Shown here one piece after another: positions 46,328 to 64,000 of a stretch of DNA of 64,000 nucleotides. The position numbers were made by a program, and so were the translations under genes. Source of the stretch: Clostridia bacterium. Its GTDB lineage: Bacteria; Bacillota; DAOUPZ01. Below the pieces are notes generated by a model. It saw only the letters and a program-made list of their open reading frames with translations, had not been told where the DNA came from and ran no database searches. The stretch covers positions 1 through 64,000 of the forward strand of contig DAOUPZ010000014.1 in assembly GCA_030625885.1 (NCBI GenBank), read 5' to 3'. Position 1 is the stretch's first letter. The number at the start of each line of letters is the position of its first letter.

Positions 46328-47254
46328 TTGGAATTTAAGCAATTGGAAACGTTTATTGAGGTAGTCAATTTAAAGAGTTTTTCTAAAGCTGCGGAAAAGA
46401 TGTTTTTGACGCAACCAACAATTACAAATCATATCCAATCTCTGGAAGAAGAATTGGGTACCTTGCTCATCAATAGATCAGGAAAAAGGATTTCAGTAAC
46501 GGATGCTGGAAGTATATTATACCGCTATGCTTTAGAGATTGTTAATATGCGTGATTTGGCGCAATTTAACTTAAATGAATACGAAGGGAAAATAGAAGGT
46601 CATTTAGAAATAAGTACCAGTTCAATTCCAGAACAATATGTCATACCTCATATTTTAAAAGAATTTATTGAGCAATACCCTAATGTTACTTTTACGATTA
46701 ATCACGAAGACTCTAAACGTGTTGTAGAAGATATTACTAATGGATATATTAATTATGGGATTGTAGGGGCAAAATATGACTCAGATGCTTTAGAATATAT
46801 TGATTTTTTCGAAGATCATCTTATTGTTGTCGTACCTAATAATGAAAATTATGTTTGGAAACCCTATGAGACTTTGGATATTGGTTTTTTACTTAAGCAA
46901 AAAATTATTTTACGTGAAAAAGGGTCAGGTACGAGACTTTTAGTTGAAAAAGCATTAAAAGAAAAAAATCTAAAAATAGATAGCTTAGATATTATTTCAT
47001 GTATAGAGGATAATGAAACAATAAAAAAATTAGTTGAGCTGGGGTTAGGAATTAGCTTTATTTCTGAAATAGCAGTTCAAAAAGAAATTAAATTAGGCTT
47101 AATAAAACCATACTACATCAAGGATCTTGAATTAAAAAGGAAGTTTTATTTTGTATATCATAAAAATAGATATTTATCCCCATTGGCGCAAGAATTTAAA
47201 AATTTTGTAATTGAATATACAAATAATTTCGAATTAAATTCTATTAATTGTTAA
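46328..47254 (+). CDS. LysR-family regulator of the selenium-metabolism-associated type
   Basis: A 308-residue LysR regulator: winged-helix N-terminus FKQLETFIEVVNLKSFSKAAEKMFLTQPTITNHIQSLEEELG (2-44) and a substrate-binding domain with EISTSSIPEQYVIPHILKEF. Its location directly before selD (12 nt) and after selA, the usual place of the selenium-metabolism-associated LysR group, supports that label; the effector is unknown. Start TTG 46328 with GTGGTGAT upstream. Confidence 0.85.
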   Translation: MEFKQLETFIEVVNLKSFSKAAEKMFLTQPTITNHIQSLEEELGTLLINRSGKRISVTDAGSILYRYALEIVNMRDLAQFNLNEYEGKIEGHLEISTSSIPEQYVIPHILKEFIEQYPNVTFTINHEDSKRVVEDITNGYINYGIVGAKYDSDALEYIDFFEDHLIVVVPNNENYVWKPYETLDIGFLLKQKIILREKGSGTRLLVEKALKEKNLKIDSLDIISCIEDNETIKKLVELGLGISFISEIAVQKEIKLGLIKPYYIKDLELKRKFYFVYHKNRYLSPLAQEFKNFVIEYTNNFELNSINC

Positions 47255-57784: not shown

Positions 57785-57813
57785 TTGACACGAACATATG
57801 TTCGTGATATATT
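57785..57813 (+). promoter_or_regulatory. yneA promoter
   Basis: TTGACA (57785-57790), exactly 17-nt spacer, TATATT (57808-57813). The spacer is almost filled by the perfect LexA box. Confidence 0.85.
57791..57804. promoter_or_regulatory. LexA box (perfect)
   Basis: CGAACATATGTTCG, a perfect 14-bp palindrome in the spacer of the yneA promoter. Confidence 0.93.
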
Positions 57814-57820
57814 TGTAGTA

Positions 57821-57834
57821 CAAACATATGTTCG
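57821..57834. promoter_or_regulatory. LexA box (downstream of yneA promoter)
   Basis: CAAACATATGTTCG, one mismatch, centred 30 bp from the perfect box. Covers the start of transcription and abuts the ribosome site of yneA. Confidence 0.85.
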
Positions 57835-57846
57835 GGGGGCGAAGAA

Positions 57847-58888: not shown

Positions 58889-59563
58889 TTATAGTGGTAA
58901 TTGGTCTGGGTTGATAAGATAAGCTCGATAAACAATTTTTATATATTTTATCGTCCGTTTGATTAAGATATTAACTGGATCATTAATTTCTTTATTTATA
59001 ACCTTTGAAAGCATTCCATTATAAATAATCATCGTCATTTCATTGATCTCGAGAATATCTTCTCTATGTATGAAACCCTCATCTGCACACTTGTTTAGTA
59101 ATGTAGTAGCAGGGTCATAAATATTACTTTTTAGGAACATAGTAGAGATATCTTCATCTGAGTGCATTAATTCATCAGGGTAGATTTCATAATATTCCTT
59201 CACATAATCATTTATGGGTTTGTCTAATTTAGCAAAGAAAATTGCATTAGCAATATCTATATTATTAAATATATAATCACAGAAACACTCCGTTACAATG
59301 AATTTTCTTTCTAAGGCGTTTTTGGCGGTTTTAATATAAGTTGGTAAAGTTTCACCATATTTGCGAATGGATTTCATTGCTGCTAAAAATACGAGATGAT
59401 CCAAATTTTCAAAATAATTATAAAGGGTCGCAGCATTGTATCCTGCAATGTCTGCAATTTTCCGCACAGTAATGGTATCAATACCTTCTTGATCAATAAC
59501 TTGAGCAGTAGCATCAATAAAATAAGTTAATATTCTTTGTCTTTGAATTTCCTTTTTAGTCAT
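58889..59563 (-). CDS. TetR family regulator, copy 1
   Basis: A 224-residue TetR protein with an N-terminal helix-turn-helix (GIDTITVRKIADIAGYNAATLYNYFENLDHLVFLAAMK, about 24-61) and a helical ligand domain ending RAYLINPDQLPL. About half its residues match copy 2 at 60001. The complement of TGGTGGG gives the ribosome site. Upstream on the coding side TCATAA-GGGA-TTATGA (59607-59622) could be its operator. Ligand unknown; nearness to the grd genes suggests control of amine or amino acid use. Confidence 0.88.
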   Translation of the reverse strand: MTKKEIQRQRILTYFIDATAQVIDQEGIDTITVRKIADIAGYNAATLYNYFENLDHLVFLAAMKSIRKYGETLPTYIKTAKNALERKFIVTECFCDYIFNNIDIANAIFFAKLDKPINDYVKEYYEIYPDELMHSDEDISTMFLKSNIYDPATTLLNKCADEGFIHREDILEINEMTMIIYNGMLSKVINKEINDPVNILIKRTIKYIKIVYRAYLINPDQLPL

Positions 59564-59805
59564 AAATTATCCCACCATTTCCAGTAAAATCTATAGGCAC
59601 ATTATATCATAAGGGATTATGAAAATCAAAAAGAAGCAGATATCATATGATGAGTAATAACCCGCTGTCGCATAAAAAAGCAATAATATGTTAGCATTCA
59701 GCATAGTGAATATTATACCCAAATTAGTGATTATGATTCAAATATTTAACATATGTAATTTGATTTTTTATCGTTATTCTATGCAAAAAAGTAAAAGTAT
59801 TTTTG

Positions 59806-59869
59806 AACATAATGTAAATATAAAGGCAGAACATATATATATGTTCTGCCTTTATATTTACATTATGTT
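59806..59869. repeat. 64-nt perfect palindrome
   Basis: Positions 59806-59837 are the exact reverse complement of 59838-59869 (32 bp, no loop); arms begin AACATAATGTAAATATAAAG. It lies between the two tetR genes. Such a perfect cruciform is more than a terminator needs. Any ORF across it is fortuitous. Confidence 0.9.
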
Positions 59870-60000
59870 TGGTCTAATATTACAAAATAGCAACAATTTA
59901 TGTTGAATACTTTTGAAAATTTAGGGTAACTTAAGATCTAGATTTGCAACCCATATGTTAAGTTTTAGGGAACAAATTTACCAAGGATTGATTAGCTTTC

Positions 60001-60675
60001 TTATAAGGATAATGGGTTGGGATCTTTGAGATAACCCTGAAAACATATTTTTATATATTTAGTGGTTCTTTCGACTAAAATGTTAACAGGATCATCAATT
60101 TCTTTATTTATGATCTTAGAAAGCATCCCCTTAAAAACTAGCATAATCATCTCATTAAGTTCAGCGAAATATTCTGAGGCAATTAAATCTTCAGCAACAC
60201 ATTCCTCTAATAAAACAGCATTACGATCATAAAGATTACTCTTTAAAAGCATGGTATTAATATGTTCATCTGAATTCAATAATTCTTCTGGATAGGTTTC
60301 ATAATATTCTTTGATATAGTCATGAAAAGGATTATTTAGCTTAGCAAAGAAAATAGCATAATATATCTTGGGATTATTAAATGAATGATTTAAAAAACAT
60401 TCCCATATGAGTAAATTCCTTTCATATGCATTTTTAGCATCTGAAATATAACCTGGCAAATCTTCAGCATAAGATCGAATAAATTTCATGGCTGCAAGAA
60501 ATTTTAAATGATCTACACTTTCAAAATAATTATAGAGGGTTGCACTATTGTACCCAGCAATATCACCAACCTTCCTTATGGTAATAGCATCAATATCTTC
60601 TTCCTGAATGATTTGTGCTGCAGCATCAATAAAATATGTTAACATTCGTTTCCTTTGTATTTCTTTTTTTGTCAT
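60001..60675 (-). CDS. TetR family regulator, copy 2 (next to grd)
   Basis: A 224-residue paralog of the preceding gene: same length, same opening MTKKEIQR, HTH with DIDAITIRKVGDIAGYNSATLYNYFESVDHLKFLAAMK and a helical C-terminal domain ending QGYLKDPNPLSL. It is divergent from the grd operon, and both intergenic sides contain the motif ATAAT-N4-ATTAT, making it the prime candidate for the grd regulator with autoregulation. The two copies look like an old tandem duplication. Confidence 0.88.
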   Translation of the reverse strand: MTKKEIQRKRMLTYFIDAAAQIIQEEDIDAITIRKVGDIAGYNSATLYNYFESVDHLKFLAAMKFIRSYAEDLPGYISDAKNAYERNLLIWECFLNHSFNNPKIYYAIFFAKLNNPFHDYIKEYYETYPEELLNSDEHINTMLLKSNLYDRNAVLLEECVAEDLIASEYFAELNEMIMLVFKGMLSKIINKEIDDPVNILVERTTKYIKICFQGYLKDPNPLSL

Positions 60676-60721: not shown

Positions 60722-60755
60722 ATAATAAGTATTATATTAACATAATAAGTATTAT
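60722..60755. promoter_or_regulatory. Two tandem operator-like sites upstream of tetR copy 2
   Basis: ATAATAAGTATTAT occurs at 60722-60735 and 60742-60755, within a 20-bp direct repeat beginning TTAACATAATAAG. The same half-sites occur in the grd promoter. Confidence 0.6.
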
Positions 60756-60900
60756 TTTACCAGTATAAATCATAAAGCGTAAATCCTTCATGATTTAGCG
60801 TGAACATTATAGCTTATTAGAAATAAATTTGTCAAGTTTATGATGTATAGATAATTGTTATTAAGGATAAAATTTTAATAATAAACATTTATAATCTCTA

Positions 60901-60929
60901 TTGCAATATAATCATGATTATGTTATACT
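60901..60929 (+). promoter_or_regulatory. grd promoter with embedded operator
   Basis: TTGCAA (60901-60906), 17-nt spacer, extended -10 TGTTATACT (TATACT 60924-60929). The spacer contains the perfect palindrome ATAATCATGATTAT (60908-60921), matching the tetR-side sites in its ATAAT/ATTAT arms. Confidence 0.75.
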
Positions 60930-61055
60930 CATGGTAGTTAATTAATCAACTGTTAAAAGTAATAATAAATTGTTTAATTTGGAAATGATTTTTTATTGCG
61001 CTTTTAACCGATCCAATTAATTCCTAATCATTTAAATCTGAAAGGAGTGTAAAGT

Positions 61056-62381
61056 GTGAAGTTAGAGGTTGGTAATTTTTATGTTAAAGACGTTGTCTTT
61101 GGGGATGAAACGAAGTATGAAAATGGTATTTTGACAATCAACAAACAAGAAGCTATTGATTACGTAAAAGAAGATGAACACATCACAGACATCGACATCG
61201 TCATTGCAAAACCAGGAGACAGTATCCGTATTGTGCCTGTTAAGGAAGCGATTGAGCCAAGATGTAGAGTGGCAGGTGGACCGGTATTTCCCGGTGTAAC
61301 TGGGGATTTACAGCAAGCAGGAAATGGTAGAACTCACGCGTTGAAAAACACAAGTGTTTTAGCAGTAGGTAAACACTGGGGGAGTTTTGGTGATGGGCTC
61401 ATTGATATGAGTGGTGAAGGGGCAAAATACACTTACTACTCTCAATTAATGAATATCTGCTTGGTAGTAGATACGGATGAAGAATTTGAAAGATATGAAC
61501 AACAAAAGAAAAACCGTGCATTAAGATGGGGTGCAATGCGTTTATCTGAATATATTGGAAATTGTACTAAAGACTTACAACCTGAAGAAATTGAAACATA
61601 TGAATTAGAGCCAGTAACAAAACGTTCTAAAGAAGTAAATGACTTACCTTCCGTTGTTGTCGTATTACAACCACAATCACAAATGGAAGAATTGGGATAC
61701 AATGACTTAAATTATGGGTGGGATTGCAACCGTATGTTACCTACCTTCATGCATCCAAATGAAGTATTAGATGGTGCTATGATTTCCGGTAGTTTCATGC
61801 CATGTTCTTCAAAATGGTCAACTTACGATTTTCAAAACTTCCCAATTATTAAGAGATTATACAAGGAACACGGTAAAACAGTTAATTTCTTGGGTGTTAT
61901 CATGTCCAACTTGAATGTTGCATTGGAGCAAAAAGAAAGAGCAGCAATCTTTGTAGCACAAATGGCAAAATCATTAGGTGCGGATAGTGCTATCCTAGCA
62001 GAAGAGGGATACGGTAATCCGGATGCGGACTTTATCGGTTGTTTCGTAGCACTAGAAGATGCAGGTGTTAAAACGATAGGATGTACCAATGAATGTACAG
62101 GTAGAGATGGTAATTCTCAACCACTTGTTACTTTAGATGAAAAAGCAAATGCTATTGTATCTTGTGGTAACGTTTCCGAACTCATCGAATTACCTCCTAT
62201 GGATACGGTAGTTGGTGAATTACAAGCGTTAGCAAGAGACGGTTTATCCGGAGGATGGGCTGGCGATGAAATATTAGGACCTTCTGTTAGAGAAGATGGT
62301 TCAATTATCTTGGAAAATAACTCAATGTTTTCAGGTGATCAGGTAGTAGGATGGTCACCGAAGACAATGAAAGAATTTTAA
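61056..62381 (+). CDS. grdI: Betaine/sarcosine/glycine reductase component B, alpha/beta precursor (GrdI/GrdG/GrdE type)
   Basis: The 441-residue proprotein is cleaved to two subunits, one with an N-terminal pyruvoyl group that binds the amine substrate. Signatures: KLEVGNFYVKDVVFG, AGGPVFPGVTG, GRTHALKNTSVLAVGKHWGSFGDGLIDMSGEGA. Cys250 (MPCSSKWSTYDFQN) is my candidate for the pyruvoyl precursor. The YYSQLMNICLVVDTDEEFERYEQQKKN stretch resembles the betaine/sarcosine branch more than glycine GrdE, but substrate specificity needs comparison. Start GTG 61056, AAAGGAG 8 nt upstream. Confidence 0.85.
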   Translation: MKLEVGNFYVKDVVFGDETKYENGILTINKQEAIDYVKEDEHITDIDIVIAKPGDSIRIVPVKEAIEPRCRVAGGPVFPGVTGDLQQAGNGRTHALKNTSVLAVGKHWGSFGDGLIDMSGEGAKYTYYSQLMNICLVVDTDEEFERYEQQKKNRALRWGAMRLSEYIGNCTKDLQPEEIETYELEPVTKRSKEVNDLPSVVVVLQPQSQMEELGYNDLNYGWDCNRMLPTFMHPNEVLDGAMISGSFMPCSSKWSTYDFQNFPIIKRLYKEHGKTVNFLGVIMSNLNVALEQKERAAIFVAQMAKSLGADSAILAEEGYGNPDADFIGCFVALEDAGVKTIGCTNECTGRDGNSQPLVTLDEKANAIVSCGNVSELIELPPMDTVVGELQALARDGLSGGWAGDEILGPSVREDGSIILENNSMFSGDQVVGWSPKTMKEF

Positions 62382-62395
62382 GGGGGGTGCGATAA

Positions 62396-63709
62396 ATGAA
62401 AAAAGCTATTCTATATATCAACCAGTTTTTCGCAGGAATCGGTGGAGAAGATAAAGCTGATTACGCGCCTGAAATAAGAGCAGAATTAGTTGGTCCGGCA
62501 ATGGAACTCGATAAAAGATTACAAAATGCTGAAGTAACACATACAATTATCTGCGGGGACAACTTCATGGGTTCAAAGACAGAAGAAGCAGTTGAAGAAA
62601 TCCTTGGATTCTTAGCAGATAAAGAATTTGATATCTTCTTTGCAGGTCCAGCTTTCCAGGCAGGTCGATACGGTAGTGCGTGTGGTCATATTTGTAAAGC
62701 TGTAAAAGAAAAATTTGGTGTACCTATTATTTCTTCCATGCATGAAGAAAACCCTGGAGTAGATATGTTCAAGAAAGATATGATTATCTTCCCAAGTGGT
62801 AAAAGTGCAGCAGCAATGAGAAAAGATGTAAAGAAAATTGCTGCATATGGGGACAAGGTATTGGCTGGTGAAAAACTTGGCAATGCAGAAGAAGAAGGAT
62901 ATTTTGTAAGAGGCATCAGACATCAGGAATGGTTAGAAGATGCTACACCGGCAGCAGATCGTGTTATCGACATGTTGCTTAAAAAAATTAAGGGTGAATC
63001 CTTTAAAACTGAATTGCCTATTCCAAAATTGGACAGAGTACCGATTGCACCTGCAATTAAGGATTTAAGTAAAGCAACTGTTGCAATTGCTACTTCAGGT
63101 GGTATTGTTCCTGTGGACAATCCGGATAGAATTCAATCTGCTTCCGCTACTAGATGGGGAAGATACAGTGTCGAAGGTATGGAACGTTTGGAAGCTGGTG
63201 TATTTAAAACGATTCATGCAGGTTATGATCCGGCAGCAGCGGACGCAGATCCTAACGTATGTGTGCCGATTGATGCAATGAGAGCTTTTGAAAAAGAAGG
63301 AAAAATCGGTAGATTACATGAGTACTTCTATACGACTGTTGGAACAGGAACGACTCAAGCAGAAGCAGCTAGAATGGGTCAGGAAATGGTGGAATACTTC
63401 AAGAATGAAGGCGTTGACGCTGTTATTCTAACCTCTACCTGAGGTACCTGTACTCGTTGTGGAACAACGATCGTAAAAGAAATTGAGAAAGCTGGCATTA
63501 CAGTTGTCCAAATGGCTAACCTTATTCCGGTTGCTAAGACAGTAGGGGCGAACAGAATGGTACCAACCATTTCTATTCCATATCCATTAGGAGACCCTGG
63601 TACAAGCAAGGAAGAACAATGGAAGTTAAGATATCATAGAGTAGGCGTAGCATTGGATGCATTAGCTATTGATGTTAAAGAACAAACTGTATTTAAAGTA
63701 AAAATATAG
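62396..63709 (+). CDS. grdH: Betaine/sarcosine/glycine reductase selenoprotein B (in-frame TGA)
   Basis: The 437-residue gamma subunit of component B. TGA 63440-63442 encodes selenocysteine at residue 349 in LTST-U-GTCTRCGTT, the family active site, and the frame continues to 63709 (PYPLGDPGTSKEEQWKLRYHRVG). The N-terminus AILYINQFFAGIGGEDKADY and TSGGIVPVDNPDRIQSASATRWG favour the betaine/sarcosine type over glycine GrdB. It works with selenoprotein A and component C to make acetyl phosphate; those genes must lie beyond the window. GGGGGGTG upstream of ATG 62396. Confidence 0.9.
63443..63475 (+). promoter_or_regulatory. SECIS element in the grdH-like gene
   Basis: Twelve nt after the TGA, CGTTGT (63455-63460) pairs with ACAACG (63464-63469) around a GGA loop. 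Short stem; position is as expected for SelB recognition. Confidence 0.65.
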
Positions 63710-63817: not shown

Positions 63818-64000
63818 ATGTTAGCAGTAGACAAAAGCACATTTGAAGCAGAAGTATTACAAGCAGAAGGATATGTATTAGTAGACTTCTGGAGTGAAGG
63901 TTGTGAACCTTGTAAAGCATTGATGCCTGATGTTGTAGCACTTTCTGAAAAATACGAAGGCAAAATGAAATTCTGTAAATTAGATACAGGTAAAGCAAGA
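63818..64000 (+). CDS. trxA: Grd-associated thioredoxin (partial, cut by window edge)
   Basis: First 61 residues of a thioredoxin with [23 protein letters not shown]; the C-E-P-C active site is characteristic of the thioredoxin encoded in glycine/betaine reductase operons, which passes electrons from NADPH to selenoprotein A. AAAGGAGG precedes ATG 63818. A thioredoxin reductase gene (trxB) would be expected next, beyond the edge. Confidence 0.9.

Follow-up and report, generated by a model that had tools for sequence, protein, structure and literature searches.

The window analysed here is a stretch of 64,000 nucleotides from a Clostridia bacterium, and one end of it holds two genes for TetR-type regulators and a betaine reductase operon. 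The tetR pair lies on the minus strand, and grdI-grdH-trxA is read divergently from tetR2. The genes of the locus are:

58889-59563, minus strand: tetR1 (TetR copy 1), sister of copy 2 (TetR_N domain; tree 99/87)
60001-60675, minus strand: tetR2 (TetR copy 2, 224 aa; Pfam TetR_N 31.2 bits, cut-off 24; structure model pLDDT 90.7)
61056-62381, plus strand: grdI, betaine reductase component B alpha (Pfam Gly_reductase 628 bits)
62396-63709, plus strand: grdH, betaine reductase selenoprotein (NCBIfam betaine_GrdH; in-frame TGA; SECIS at 63443-63480, SECIS_4)
63818-64000, plus strand: trxA, cut off at the window end

Beyond the window, the contig continues after trxA with grdA and a gene for a BCCT-type transporter. 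Compared with GrdI proteins from other genomes, the window GrdI shows 79-80% identity, and GrdH, with its selenocysteine, passes the betaine-specific NCBIfam model NF040795 (849 bits, cut-off 775). Because GrdH passes this model and its gene has both the TGA and the SECIS element, we assign the operon to betaine reductase. An earlier, sequence-only reading of this DNA had named it betaine/sarcosine reductase; the betaine half of that name stands, whereas the sarcosine half does not, a sarcosine-type operon being located elsewhere in the genome. A search of the grd leader with Rfam gave no riboswitch match.

The paired TetR proteins and their relatives

TetR1 and TetR2 are 63% identical, and their recognition helices are nearly identical. 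In both copies the TetR_N DNA-binding domain scores above the gathering cut-off of 24 bits (37.1 and 31.2 bits, respectively). The AlphaFold2 model of TetR2 is all-helical, with eleven helices, an N-terminal helix-turn-helix and a pLDDT of 90.7, and its top Foldseek matches are exclusively TetR-type regulators (TM 0.4-0.7). The solved structures are of distant TetR relatives only and give no clue to the ligand. In the tree, the two copies are sisters (99/87) within a Tepidibacter-type, grd-linked TetR clade (100/96); the duplication therefore belongs to the lineage of the window.

BetI, which represses the bet genes and responds to choline, shares with this pair the TetR family, a link to betaine-related metabolism and a resemblance over the N-terminal half (29-38 bits). 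However, TetR1 and TetR2 reach only 38.0 and 29.2 bits on NCBIfam TIGR03384, which has a cut-off of 201.3, and are thus not BetI. The window TetR is tied to anaerobic betaine breakdown, whereas BetI is tied to betaine synthesis from choline, and the operators differ.

Relatives of the TetR proteins were gathered from a phylum sample together with an alignment query of named genomes; an exact-peptide search had returned none. The closest, up to 62% identical, belong to Tepidibacter. Across 104 loci, grdI or grdH lies beside TetR in about 58 and a BCCT transporter adjoins it in 64, and the commonest layout among the relatives is a divergent grdI-tetR pair. True GrdI, defined by at least 69% identity and well apart from paralogues at 46% or less, is found in 13 of the 399 sampled genomes, and all 13 also encode this TetR. 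The hypergeometric probability of this co-occurrence, 2.8e-21, is not corrected for phylogeny and is too small, because related genomes are not independent. Many of the 30 GrdI loci gave no start codon when their upstream DNA was scored, and from that comparison the hypergeometric value alone was kept.

The same TetR subfamily also stands beside BCCT transporters in Bacilli (loci L105, L118, L126, L128 and L135). In most of these loci, genes for a large hydrolase and for a creatinase-like protein of the M24 type are also present, and the operator described below is kept in several. This BCCT/hydrolase/M24 locus of Bacilli is an uncharacterised solute-breakdown cluster.

Two features were observed around the tetR genes themselves. 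Between them, at 59814-59861, lies a perfect hairpin with a 20-bp stem, both strands of which are conserved and which has no long T tail. Rfam microRNA matches at 59805-59871 were rejected, as they correspond to this perfect A+T-rich hairpin. The predicted tetR1 promoter (TTGATT-N17-TATAAT, 59601-59629, minus strand) has a palindrome in its spacer, TCATAA-TCCC-TTATGA (59607-59622), which differs from the grd operator and is possibly a separate control site.

A conserved operator in the grd promoter spacer

We learned an operator motif by an unsupervised palindrome search in 98 upstream regions of TetR relatives, leaving out the window genome. The search, which was not supplied with the sites of the sequence-only reading, converged on AtATAATCATGATTATaT at a log-likelihood of 301, compared with 33-38 in four shuffled sets that were given fewer restarts. 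The sites considered in the window, and the promoters around them, are as follows:

60722-60735 and 60742-60755, no strand assigned: two tandem copies of ATAATAAGTATTAT, 20 bp apart, not the conserved operator
60835-60806, minus strand: predicted tetR2 promoter TTGACA-N18-TATAAT (12/12 matches in the promoter scan)
60889-60906, no strand assigned: weak companion site TTATAATCTCTATTGCAA, 17 bp upstream of the operator and overlapping the -35 (4.85 bits)
60901-60929, plus strand: grd promoter TTGCAA-N17-TATACT, with the operator as its spacer (from the sequence and the promoter scan)
60908-60921, no strand assigned: operator ATAATCATGATTAT of the TetR subfamily, core of the 18-mer 60906-60923 (by profile score)
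60923-60940, no strand assigned: weak companion site TTATACTCATGGTAGTTA, 17 bp downstream of the operator and overlapping the -10 (5.08 bits)

The grd palindrome and both tandem copies had been picked out in the sequence-only reading, and all three are present at these coordinates. Scored with the profile learned without the window genome, the site at 60908 reaches 21.57 of 21.98 bits and ranks first in the 64 kb, where the next best site has 10.6 bits. Because it matches an independently learned profile this closely, we take the grd palindrome to be the operator. In the subfamily operator test it shows the core, the arms and companions at 17 bp on both sides. Across the 380 bp between tetR2 and grdI, no positions other than 60889, 60906 and 60923 reach 4.8 bits, and these three form a 17-bp ladder. 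We infer that this ladder may represent neighbouring dimers over the -35, the spacer and the -10. The palindrome had further been said to fill the grd promoter spacer, and this is borne out: TTGCAA occupies 60901-60906 and TATACT 60924-60929, separated by a spacer of 17 bp.

This arrangement has counterparts among the relatives. TTGAAA-operator-TATTAT recurs there in many instances, and when the best site is read in the direction of the adjacent gene, the promoter hexamers flanking it score 7.06 of 12, compared with 4.06 at random positions. Of 52 regions, 32 have a second site above 5 bits at a distance of exactly 17 bp, compared with 0-2 regions for the other offsets from 13 to 22. The density of sites above 15 bits is 47 times higher in intergenic than in genic DNA, and these strong sites stand mostly before grdI, tetR, trxB, mttB and BCCT genes. 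In some grdI-linked regions (for example, L038 and L093), profile scoring gave no strong site upstream of tetR.

QacR-type operators, which are bound by two TetR dimers, offer a parallel in their closely spaced palindromic sites suggestive of dimer pairs. They differ in that the step here is 17 bp and the main site fills a promoter spacer, and here the pairing of dimers would be a prediction.

Taking together the site, its conservation, its position in the spacer, the ladder of 17-bp steps and the link between TetR and betaine reductase across genomes, all computed here, we consider it about 85% probable that the TetR subfamily encoded next door has its operator at 60908, that TetR1, TetR2 or both repress grd until a betaine-like solute appears, and that the tandem repeats are a separate matter. 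A TetR dimer, of copy 2, copy 1 or both, would bind the grd promoter spacer, and the weaker sites one 17-bp step to each side would help it to bind. Bound TetR would exclude RNA polymerase and keep grdI-grdH silent, presumably together with the genes behind them. The operator would then be freed by an inducer, for which glycine betaine or a solute close to it is the most likely candidate. Betaine is the likely ligand because the neighbours are betaine reductase, the BCCT transporter and MttB-type methyltransferases. Some relatives of this TetR adjoin M24/M20-type enzymes instead, and the ligand may therefore be another compatible solute. Control of betaine reductase by TetR through the promoter palindrome, as originally put forward, thus has strong comparative support from the conserved motif, the gene coupling and the promoter position, with binding as its predicted step.

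The sequence-only reading went further and joined tetR2 to grd through a shared motif, with the same TetR binding the grd palindrome and both tandem copies and so repressing both grd and its own gene. We regard this as improbable. The ATAAT and ATTAT arms are indeed common to the tandem copies and the grd palindrome, the exact tandem 14-mer is found again near tetR in one relative (L075), and autoregulation is frequent among TetR proteins. However, the L075 match includes a TATAAT hexamer and may be merely a promoter. At 60722 and 60742, AAGT stands in place of the CATG core, and only the A+T-rich arms are common with the operator; the two copies score 3.18 and 2.66 bits (ranks 65 and 74 in the 64 kb), against 21.57 bits at 60908. 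Their spacing is 20 bp and never 17, and with up to 2 mismatches they occur in 4 of the relatives' regions, compared with 4.2 in shuffles, which is no conservation above chance. The copies sit 47-80 bp upstream of the tetR2 ATG. Since the predicted tetR2 promoter, a consensus promoter, lies upstream of them, they would fall in the tetR2 leader and not over the promoter. Autoregulation through a shared site is unsupported because the tandem copies lack the core, score low, lie in the predicted leader and are not conserved. As operators they were rejected by profile score, spacing, position and absent conservation; the best explanation treats them as an A+T-rich repeat of its own within the predicted leader of tetR2. 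The original observation is right for the sequence, and its link is half right: a conserved operator lies at grd, and tetR2 has no shared operator.

Activation of grd by TetR from the spacer site, in place of repression, is more doubtful still. A few TetR-family proteins are activators and the -35 hexamer TTGCAA is imperfect, but the spacer has the normal length of 17 bp and the site lies between the -35 and the -10, a place from which a dimer would be expected to obstruct polymerase. Least credible of all is a chance palindrome in A+T-rich DNA: the intergenic region is very A+T-rich and the loose pattern ATAAT-N4-ATTAT is just modestly enriched in the window (4 matches, the fourth at 46839, versus 0.84 expected, with 2 of 100 shuffles reaching 4), but shuffles of the 380-bp region held a mean of 0.04 such matches and the full consensus in none of 5000, the grd site is a near-perfect match to an independently learned operator, and in loci that lack grd (L054, L121, L128 and L135) the operator still accompanies TetR.

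The proposed repression of grd by TetR1, TetR2 or both also appears to be new. The sequence-only reading had called this regulation undescribed, and in the open-access literature, with most subscription papers outside the search, we likewise found no TetR control of grd and no described regulator of betaine reductase. In Candidatus 'Betaina sedimentti', a tetR is drawn in the grdHI-opuD-trxAB neighbourhood, and the paper proposes no operator, role or regulation for it (PMC6716910). The TetR repressor subfamily predicted to use this operator across the Firmicutes is so far undescribed. The betaine reductase reaction yields trimethylamine and supplies Stickland fermentation in anaerobes from the gut, marine settings and digesters. 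The conserved operator provides a predictable switch in many Clostridia and some Bacilli and names the protein to test, and the grd operator-promoter is likely a betaine-responsive promoter, making the on-switch for the fermentation of betaine, an osmoprotectant, directly testable.

Further operators and a small-RNA-like family in the same genome

For the regulon within the genome, the analysis relied entirely on pattern searches. Exact copies of the composite promoter-operator occur at three places: in the window, at C8:67631 and at C23:101202 (minus strand). One-mismatch composites occur at C8:67408 and C16:2969, compared with a control of 1 per strand at up to 3 mismatches.

The C16 region (L154:2660-3013) contains a 47-bp perfect inverted repeat that lies some 310 bp ahead of grdX-grdG and holds two operators at a 17-bp spacing; these operators can form promoters in both directions. 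C16 GrdG is of the sarcosine reductase type by NCBIfam (830 bits, cut-off 780). A first impression of the operon as glycine reductase was rejected, as the alpha subunit is the sarcosine-type GrdG by NCBIfam. A sigma-54-like promoter, TTGGCAC-N5-TGCA, lies nearer grdX, with an NtrC-type regulator and a sensor kinase adjoining, and TetR control of grdX-grdG is uncertain because that promoter is nearer the gene. The C23:101202 site is flanked on one side by a DoeA-like gene, which with 489.7 bits falls short of the cut-off of 613, and on the other by a TRAP transporter operon, and the better promoter at this site points away from the TRAP genes. On C12, a 16.2-bit operator-like site is located over the promoter start before a gene for a CobW-like GTPase (L182:1507-2505), which is possibly a further regulon member.

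Each of the sites at C8:67408 and C8:67631 is followed by a unit of about 130 nt that lacks an open reading frame and contains an intrinsic terminator as well as a hairpin with a C5 loop; the folds have z-scores of -6.0 and -5.3. These units belong to a larger family:

L156:4914-5260 (C8:67408-67800), C8:66782, C25:50973, C9:51741, C23:98797 and C27:83761 (minus strand): seven-copy small-RNA-like family

Units of the family, about 130 nt long, combine the hairpin GTGGTAA..ACCCCC..TTACCAC, the conserved GATTCATGTTCAAAG and an intrinsic terminator. Two of the seven copies have the TetR operator in the promoter spacer; others have different inverted repeats upstream. One copy lies directly behind a glycine riboswitch aptamer and terminator on C23 (L153:3631-3888; aptamer L153:3631-3725), as if glycine controlled it. 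Against Rfam, the family gave chance-level matches only, none above a family's gathering score, and it was found in none of the 398 other genomes (399 including its own).

LhrC of Listeria, a set of multicopy small RNAs, resembles this family in its several similar small-RNA genes and pyrimidine-rich target-binding stretches (PMC4132741). The sequences are unrelated, however, and the family here comprises seven predicted C5-loop copies, two of which follow the TetR operator and one a glycine riboswitch.

A broader picture, which we offer tentatively and at somewhat under even odds, is that the TetR pair acts as a compatible-solute sensor with a regulon of betaine reductase, grdX-grdG, the DoeA-like/TRAP site and the two small RNAs. 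The supply of Stickland acceptors would then reach many mRNAs through paralogous small RNAs, each with its own metabolite sensor. If the two operator-linked small RNAs are real, metabolite supply would be tied to post-transcriptional control in a new way.

Apart from the TetR system, two LexA-box-like sites (CGAACATATGTTCG and AACATATGTTCG) lie in the window at 57790-57840, between lexA and a LysM gene, an ordinary SOS layout that resembles lexA-yneA.
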